This document shows, piece by piece, positions 1,100 through 21,202 of a DNA stretch of 64,000 bases; within the stretch, counting starts at the first letter, position 1, and each line of letters opens with the position of its first letter. A program made the translations under genes and the position numbers. The notes under the pieces were generated by a model that was not told the origin of the DNA, ran no database searches, and saw only the letters and a list, made by a program, of their open reading frames with translations. The stretch lies in the NCBI RefSeq assembly GCF_900110205.1, contig NZ_FOCV01000002.1, forward strand, positions 124,001 through 188,000. The letters run 5' to 3'. This DNA is from Rhizobium tibeticum (GTDB taxonomy: Bacteria > Pseudomonadota > Alphaproteobacteria > Rhizobiales > Rhizobiaceae).

Positions 1100-1682
1100 A
1101 GAGGTTCAATATTATCTGGCGGGGATCTGGCTGCTGATCCGCATGGATCCGCGTGGGTTCCGCTTCCTCGACATGTCGGAGCGCGGCGTCAACCGCTCGT
1201 TCTGGGCAATCCTGTGGTGCCTGCCGCCGATGGGAATCTCGTGGCTCTGGTGGCGCCAGGCCTTCCTGCAGACGATGCCGCCGCATACCGATGTCGGCGC
1301 GCTTTTCTATTTCCGGCTCGGGCTCGTTGAAGCCGCCAATTGGTTCGTTCCCCTGGTCTTTGCAGGCTTGCTGCTGCTGGCCTTCAAGAAGGGCGAGCGT
1401 TTCGCGCCCGTCATCGTCAGCGTCAATTGGCTGGGCGTCCCGCTCTCCTACATCAACGGGCTGCTGCTCGCACTGGTCTTCTTCCTGCCACAACTTGTCG
1501 GCGTCGTCTCGCTGCTGCTGCTTGCCTTCATGCTGGCGCAGGTGTTTGCGATCGCACGCATTCTCAGGATGATCTTCTACGGCCAGGGCCTGATGATCGG
1601 GGCACTCACGCTGGTGCTGCTCGTGCCATCGCTCATGCTGTCGGAATACCTGCAGCGCTTTCTCGGCATTTATCCGGTATAA
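1086..1682 (+). CDS. Small multi-pass membrane protein of unknown function
   Basis: A 198-residue protein with four or five hydrophobic stretches, near [51 protein letters not shown] and [16 protein letters not shown], ending just after the last one. It is therefore an inner-membrane protein. I recognise no catalytic motif. The ATG at 1086 is preferred over one 30 bases upstream because it overlaps the dapE stop by only 14 bases, as expected for translational coupling. It is transcribed with dapE. A conserved rhizobial hypothetical is the best description; no function can be assigned. Confidence 0.75.
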
Positions 1683-1698
1683 ATCGGCCGGGATCGAC

Positions 1699-2598
1699 CT
1701 ATTCCGACAGGGCAATCATGCGTGCCTTCAGGAGGTCGACCATCCCTTTCACCTTCATCGTCAGCGCGCCCGGCGGCCGGAGTGCGTAGATGCCGCTGCC
1801 ATCTGGCCTCGGCAGGATCGTCGGGAAGAGCCGCACCAGCCTGCCGTCTCTCAACGGCTCGGCCACCAGCCATGTCTGCAGGTGGATGATCCCAAGCCCG
1901 GCGATGGCGCTTGCAAGAAGCCCGTCCATGTCGCCGCAAACAAAACGACCCGAAACCTCAAGTCGGTCTTCGGAGCTGGTTTCGCCGAAATGCCACATCC
2001 CGGCCTTCATTGGCTTCGGTGTGGTTAGGCAGGCGTGATGCACGAGGTCTGCCGGCACCGCGGGAACACCGTGCCGCTGAAGATAGGACGGCGCGGCACA
2101 GACGACGCTCTCCGTTATCGCAAGCTTCGTCACGAGAAGCGCGGAATCCTGCAGCTTGCCAATGCGGACGGCAAGATCGATGCCATCCTCGAGAGGATTC
2201 ACGGCCCGATCCTCCAACGACAGTTCGAGATGCACCTTCGGGAACCGCTCCAGATAGACCGGCACCAGCGGAACGACGTGACGCTGGCCGAAGCAGACCG
2301 GCGCCGAGATCATCAGCCATCCCTGCGGCTCGTTCGCCATCGCCGCGACGATGCTTCGGGTCTCCTCGAGCTGGCCGAGTACCTGCCGGGCGCGGTGGCA
2401 AAGCGTCTCACCTGCCGATGTCAATGCGAGCCGGCGTGTGGACCGGTAGAACAGCTCCACCCCAAGCTCGCCTTCCAGCATGTCGATCTGCCGCGATATC
2501 GACGATGCCTGCATATTCATGTCCCGGCCTGCGGCGGAAAAGCTCCCACCGGCAACAACCCTGAGAAAGACATCCAGCCGATCCGCGAAACCCGTCAT
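1699..2598 (-). CDS. LysR-family transcriptional regulator
   Basis: A 299-residue LysR-type regulator. The N-terminal winged helix-turn-helix is clear: FLRVVAGGSFSAAGRDMNMQ, then SSISRQIDMLEGELGVELFYRSTRRLALTSAG (given here in pieces around residues 12-62). The C-terminal effector domain is of the AaeR/DsdC-like class, with the ISAPVCFGQRHVVPLVPVYL segment. The start at 2598 (MTGFADRL) is chosen because the HTH begins about ten residues later; an in-frame extension to 2661 would run into the divergent intergenic region. It is divergent from a serine hydrolase gene (2771-3928), the usual arrangement for a LysR regulator and its target. The inducer is unknown. Confidence 0.9.
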   Translation of the reverse strand: MTGFADRLDVFLRVVAGGSFSAAGRDMNMQASSISRQIDMLEGELGVELFYRSTRRLALTSAGETLCHRARQVLGQLEETRSIVAAMANEPQGWLMISAPVCFGQRHVVPLVPVYLERFPKVHLELSLEDRAVNPLEDGIDLAVRIGKLQDSALLVTKLAITESVVCAAPSYLQRHGVPAVPADLVHHACLTTPKPMKAGMWHFGETSSEDRLEVSGRFVCGDMDGLLASAIAGLGIIHLQTWLVAEPLRDGRLVRLFPTILPRPDGSGIYALRPPGALTMKVKGMVDLLKARMIALSE

Positions 2599-20106: not shown

Positions 20107-20296
20107 CGCGCCAGCCAGGGCCTAAAGGTTGGAGCGCGTCGACAAACCGGAGCGTGGCGCACAGGCTGAAATAAGGCCGAGCAAGCACTTGCAGCCATAG
20201 ACCCAGCTTCATAGCTATATAAAATAGAACCCAGTGCACATCTGCTAGGCACAGTCGTTTCGCGACACACGCCCCGCGCCTTGCGAGGATGAGACC

Positions 20297-21202
20297 ATGA
20301 ATATCGACGAAATCCTGCGGTCAGTCGTGGCCGTTCGCTCCTCAATTCCGGAAGATGCCTTTACAGCCGGCACGCTCGGCACCCGCCGGGAAGGCAGCGG
20401 CGTCGTCATCAAGCCATCCGGACTGGTCCTCACCATCGGCTACCTGATCACCGAGGCCGAGGAAGTTTGGCTGACCACGCTTGACGGGCGCGTCATCGCA
20501 GCCCATCCGCTCGCCTATGACCAGGAGACCGGGTTCGGCCTGCTTCAGGCGCTGGGGGATATCGGCCTACCGGCATTGGAATTCGGTGATGGCGCCGGAG
20601 CCAGCCTCGGCGACCCTGTCGTGCTGGCGGATGGCATCGGCCAGTTCGTGGAAGCCAGGATCGTGGCAAAGCAGGAGTTCGCCGGCTATTGGGAATATCT
20701 GCTCGATGAGGCAATCTTTACCACACCCGCCCACCCGTCCTGGGGCGGGGCCGCACTCATTGATGCCGAAGGAAAGCTGCTCGGGATCGGTTCACTGCGC
20801 CTGCAGATGAGCCAGAACGACGAGATTGCCGATATCAACATGATCGTGCCGATCAACCTGCTTCCGCCAATTCTCGATGACCTCATGACGCGCGGCCGCG
20901 TCAACAAGCCGCCGCGACCGTGGCTCGGAGCCTTTTCCGCGGAGAGCAACGGCGATGTGGTTGTGATGAGCGTGGCTGACGGAAGCCCGGCGGCTCAGGC
21001 CGGCTTGCGGCGAGGCGACATCATTTCCGAGATCCGCGATGGCGAAGTCGATGGCCTTGCCGATTTCTACCGCAAGGTCTGGAGCAGCGGCCCGGCCGGC
21101 GCGGAAATCCCGATGCGGGTGCTGCGCGACGGCCGTGAGGCGTGGCTGCGCATCAGGTCCGCCGATCGCAACGCTTTTCTGAGGAAGCCGCAACTGCAAT
21201 AG
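20297..21202 (+). CDS. Catalytically dead HtrA-like (S1C) protein with PDZ domain
   Basis: A 301-residue protein with a trypsin-fold domain (about 1-195) and a PDZ domain (about 207-285; WLGAFSAESNGDVVVMSVAD, SPAAQAGLRRGDIISEIRDG). Alignment by eye with DegP puts Tyr49 (LTIGYLI) at the catalytic His, Gly79 (DQETGFGLL) at the Asp and Trp149 (HPSWGGAAL) at the Ser, so all three triad residues are gone while the flanking fold motifs remain. There is no signal peptide or membrane helix, so it is probably cytoplasmic, unlike DegP. The ATG at 20297 follows GCGAGGATGA. Likely a binding or adaptor protein rather than a protease; its partner is unknown. Confidence 0.85.
   Translation: MNIDEILRSVVAVRSSIPEDAFTAGTLGTRREGSGVVIKPSGLVLTIGYLITEAEEVWLTTLDGRVIAAHPLAYDQETGFGLLQALGDIGLPALEFGDGAGASLGDPVVLADGIGQFVEARIVAKQEFAGYWEYLLDEAIFTTPAHPSWGGAALIDAEGKLLGIGSLRLQMSQNDEIADINMIVPINLLPPILDDLMTRGRVNKPPRPWLGAFSAESNGDVVVMSVADGSPAAQAGLRRGDIISEIRDGEVDGLADFYRKVWSSGPAGAEIPMRVLRDGREAWLRIRSADRNAFLRKPQLQ

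Follow-up and report, generated by a model that had tools for sequence, protein, structure and literature searches.

HtrA proteases form trimers or higher oligomers, and in bacteria they usually carry an export signal or a membrane anchor. Pseudoproteases with the HtrA fold are already known from magnetosomes, where MamO promotes MamE-dependent proteolysis; the oxyanion-hole Gly is numbered as position 193, and the residue other than Gly that MamO has there is considered to prevent the active conformation from forming (PMC4794232). The window analysed here, a stretch of 64,000 nucleotides from Rhizobium tibeticum, encodes a protein that has the protease fold and the PDZ domain in common with DegP, DegQ and DegS (MEROPS S1C), but differs from these in that it is without the catalytic His, Asp and Ser, the oxyanion-hole Gly and the export signal, and has one PDZ domain.

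The gene (20297..21202, on the plus strand like the other window features given with coordinates below; ATG at 20297, stop codon ending at 21202) codes for 301 amino acids with no stop codon within the frame, and relatives with 75–96% identity are present at 80 loci. The protein has the HtrA fold, with a Trypsin_2 (HtrA protease-fold) domain at residues 33–164 (20393..20788, Pfam 6e-15) and, as the earlier note had recognised from the sequence alone, a kept PDZ domain (PDZ_2, residues 213–282, 20933..21142, Pfam 1.4e-11), which is the single one; the chain ends after it at residue 301. R207-P-W-L-G211 (20915..20929) we take, from HtrA PDZ anatomy, to be the probable carboxylate-binding loop. 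The best NCBIfam match is the Do family (9.2e-26), scoring 90.7 bits where the cut-off is 416.2, and none of the 24 listed models, Do and DegS included, reached its cut-off. The AlphaFold2 model (single chain, input of 37 sequences) has a mean pLDDT of 73.3 and a pTM of 0.70, with weak regions at residues 128–137 (confidence below 50), 205–208, 288–301 and much of the PDZ domain. Residues 1–205 of the model align with DegP 3otp_E over 192 residues (Z 25.4, rmsd 2.2), DegP and DegQ are the best fold matches, and the 50 structure matches listed are trypsin-like or HtrA chains throughout.

In two alignments with ordinary HtrAs, the catalytic His is replaced by Tyr49 (20441..20443), the Asp by Gly79 (20531..20533) and the Ser by Gly150, the first two exactly as the earlier note had claimed. 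For the third it had named Trp149; the Ser is indeed missing, but H-P-S-W-G-G-A-A-L pairs with N-P-G-N-S-G-G-A-L, which puts Trp149 opposite the Asn of GNSGG and Gly150 opposite the catalytic Ser. Because of these alignments, and because the family members with a remaining Ser carry it at 150, we regard 150 as the Ser column and Trp149 as one residue off. S148-W149-G150 (20738..20746) stand, in this order, where ordinary HtrAs have the oxyanion-hole Gly, the Asn and the catalytic Ser, and the first of these we take to be position 193. As to conservation of the replacements in orthologues, which the earlier note had proposed to check, Tyr49, Gly79, Trp149 and Gly150 are kept in 81 of 81 sequences, i.e., the window protein and the best 80 of 577 relatives (with L012 and L013 identical to each other). 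In contrast, all 17 ordinary HtrAs examined, including four others found in the same genome, keep His, Asp and Ser, so the replacements are not due to chance.

A wider alignment comprised 104 members (two identical), which are part of those found: group A with 62 sequences at least 51% identical to the window protein, group B with 22 other alphaproteobacterial sequences, and group C with 20 from f33, a family in another class. The triad columns read Y/G/G in 71, Y/G/S in 28, Y/G/A in two, and Y/G/N, Y/G/Q and F/G/T in one each, and a complete triad is present in none of the 104. The His column is thus Tyr in 103 and Phe in one, the Asp column is Gly in 104/104, and column 150 has Gly in 71, Ser in 28 (among them 20/20 of group C), Ala in two, and Thr, Asn and Gln in one each; hence, every member seen has lost the His and the Asp, and some still have the Ser. 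The oxyanion-hole column (148) is non-Gly in 101/104. A hidden triad across the family was also considered and rejected, as no column has His in at least 90% of the 104 members. No conserved His is consequently available for a second triad across the family, and no relative examined carries His and Asp in the triad columns; the earlier note had allowed for both an intact triad elsewhere and orthologues with the triad present. On these sequence grounds, the absence of HtrA-type proteolysis is well supported. What the members do share is a signature motif, F128-x-G-Y-W-E-Y134 (20678..20698), in the loop preceding the former active site, with F128, W132, E133 and Y134 in 104/104, G130 in 103/104 and Y131 less conserved; E53, Gly79 and G211 (the last two in 104/104) are invariant or near-invariant, and W209 is present in 102/104.

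Judged from its sequences, the pseudo-HtrA family is separate from ordinary HtrAs, and FastTree splits it from the 17 ordinary HtrAs with a support of 1.0. In a phylum sample of 299 genomes, 288 have some match at E ≤ 0.001, and the E-values fall into two sets, with 28 genomes at ≤1.1e-57 and the remainder from 2.1e-25 upward. At the family-level threshold, the family is present in 68/397 genomes of the window's order, in 94/385 of the class and, with a divergent member as the query, in 65/250 of f33, which from its gene content we would guess to be Burkholderiales. The family is therefore far wider than rhizobia. In the class sample, the gene is found in two places in 35 genomes and in three in one, counts to which fragments contribute in at least G1025, G1176 and G1189. 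A plasmid search returned relatives in Rhizobium, Neorhizobium, Phyllobacterium and Azospirillum only. Among the matches listed in the literature searched, with most subscription journals outside its scope, there is no description of a pseudo-HtrA family.

Members in other families of the window's order are often 51–56% identical to the window protein. Two copies at 78% identity (L054 and L079, 6001-6903) come from records titled Bosea caraganae and Devosia sp., and horizontal transfer or contamination is possible for these.

By crude hydropathy and the upstream frame, no export signal or membrane anchor was seen in the window protein. The open frame has 317 codons, within the 16 codons upstream of the ATG the in-frame starts are limited to codons 1 and 11, and the highest 19-residue hydropathy (1.41, from residue 33) lies within the protease domain; this bears out the earlier note's claim that an export signal is absent. 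When N-terminal hydrophobic segments were called by a crude hydropathy rule, they were present in 1/62 A rows, 15/22 B rows and 21/21 C rows, the last counting L112 and L157, one gene, twice. The clade that joins the window with L110 (68 leaves, support 0.926) contains one positive, L099, which depends on a start 73 codons upstream, and outside this clade the non-exported rows are L204 and L218, both just below the cut. The divergent members look exported, and the export signal seems to have been lost once in the window's branch, with the direction from exported to cytoplasmic hanging on the long-branch root of the tree.

Since relatives elsewhere keep the same replacements, the protein probably has a function other than protein cutting. 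The missing catalytic residues could also be read as a gene in decay, on its way to loss, but this has a negligible probability and was rejected, because the replacements are shared by the whole close set, the dN/dS is low (0.032–0.173 in 17 whole-gene pairs, and 0.027–0.092 in eight domain comparisons, with both domains constrained) and the frame has no internal stop. The earlier note's suggestion of selection for a non-proteolytic protein appears well supported by the close set, by these dN/dS values and by the columns of the 104 members. We give about an even chance to a cytoplasmic pseudo-HtrA working as a PDZ-based peptide-binding adaptor or holdase, a role that we infer from the observed fold, residue losses, PDZ domain, lack of an export signal and selection. 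To hypothesize, the PDZ domain would capture client proteins by their C-terminal tails, and the dead protease domain, which probably still forms oligomers by analogy with other HtrAs, would hold or present these clients. The protein would then serve as an adaptor or holdase instead of an enzyme, and the conserved F-x-G-x-W-E-Y loop, next to where the active site used to be, may be a new working surface. Counting against the adaptor or holdase are the Ser at column 150 in 28/104 members, the low model confidence for the signature loop and the PDZ placement, and the neighbours, which differ by lineage and, in the window's branch, suggest no particular pathway.

The same features could be explained by a regulatory subunit, which would form mixed oligomers with, or otherwise control, an active HtrA in the same compartment in a MamO-like manner; we hold this to be rather unlikely, although MamO itself sets a precedent (PMC4794232). 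A possible partner is another HtrA of the same genome, L084 (G000:C135, ORF 1390-2571, minus strand), which is perhaps an active cytoplasmic HtrA because its triad is intact and it has no evident N-terminal hydrophobic segment. The family and relatives of L084 occur together in 35/397 genomes (68 and 55 have each), and by genus, 23 and 19 of 141 have each, with eight having both (Fisher p = 0.0035, with kinship and genome size uncontrolled), but this co-occurrence is weak, 33/68 family genomes are without an L084 relative at E ≤ 1e-60 (20/55 in reverse), and L084 and the window gene are on different contigs. Much the same small chance can be given to a new enzyme, or a ligand-binding (e.g., metal-binding) protein, in the old cleft, where E53, D75, W132-E133-Y134 or, in the window's branch, H146 could form the site. 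The polar and aromatic set is near-invariant across the 104 members, and H70 and H146, the only two His of the window protein, are invariant in the 37-row alignment; yet both vary between the groups (H70 is His in 52/62 of A and Arg in 20/20 of C, H146 is His in 60/62 of A, 12/22 of B and 1/20 of C), and at the places where MamO carries its di-His motif none is evident. That the protein is still an active protease with a non-classical site, such as a single Ser, is very improbable: S166 is in 103/104 members, as the sole column with Ser in at least 90%, and group C has its Ser at column 150, but there is no conserved His, the Asp and oxyanion-hole Gly are gone, and column 150 is Gly in most members.

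In the window, the gene order is sppA, ihfB, a LapA-type ORF (below the Pfam cut-off), the pseudo-HtrA gene and a GNAT gene on the opposite strand, and the sppA/ihfB/lapA-like setting occurs in only 16/80 close-relative loci (L001-L016). In the f3-family genomes of the phylum sample that have the gene (loci L102-L105 and L107-L109, stretches L120-L122 and L130-L132), the fetched stretch contains an Abhydrolase_2 gene in 7/7, which is directly downstream of the family gene in 5/6 stretches with called ORFs; a PHB depolymerase gene adjoins it in one f22 genome. As the neighbours vary by lineage, an operon partner was rejected, and they indicate no single pathway. Upstream, CTTG-N18-CATAGCTAT (20188..20218), a conserved stretch and possible promoter, is preserved in 15 aligned upstream regions of the Rhizobium group, bar one base in one region; with three matches in the whole genome against one for the control, nothing was learned from it about a regulon. 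In f33, a rhomboid gene (Pfam 9.8e-32 in L126) lies just upstream of the exported pseudo-HtrA gene on the same strand in 10/10 stretches (L126, L235-L243), with gaps of -55 to 777 nt in the nine with called ORFs. This adjacency may be plain synteny, since cysM-like and other neighbours are also conserved in f33. A rhomboid homologue of the f33 kind was not found in the alphaproteobacterial stretches searched. It is a speculative idea, which we consider doubtful, that the family began exported and moved to the cytoplasm once, that it would form paired peptide receptors on either side of the membrane where both kinds occur, and that the exported branch would in one lineage be coupled to a rhomboid protease as its client-binding partner.

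Among described sequences, plasmids of the Rhizobium group and of Azospirillum carry records named "S1C family serine protease" or "signal protein PDZ", which belong to the same family (53–84% identical); their product names call the members proteases or signal proteins and leave the missing triad unmentioned, and if our reading is true, many "serine protease" annotations would need correcting. With MamO, the window protein shares an inactive HtrA type, a non-Gly residue at position 193, a bulky Trp in loop L1 and retention by selection (PMC4794232). MamO keeps the triad His and Asp (H116, D149) with a Thr nucleophile, unlike the window protein, which is without both; the Trp of MamO is at position 192 and that of the window protein in the Asn column, and MamO has a di-His metal site, located in loop LC and helix 2, and a TauE-like domain (PMC4794232). 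No Pfam match to a TauE-like transporter domain was found in the window protein, and in its model, H70 and H146 neither adjoin the Asp column nor sit in helix 186–199. MamO is absent among the matches listed, structure searches included, which says nothing against a relation. HtrA pseudoproteases are already known from MamO, and the present family appears separate by sequence and without the features particular to MamO, as far as tested; if this is true, an HtrA scaffold would have been retained for binding alone, in exported and cytoplasmic branches and in about a quarter of the class-level genomes sampled, and as a single gene in tractable rhizobia it leaves the question open to direct test.
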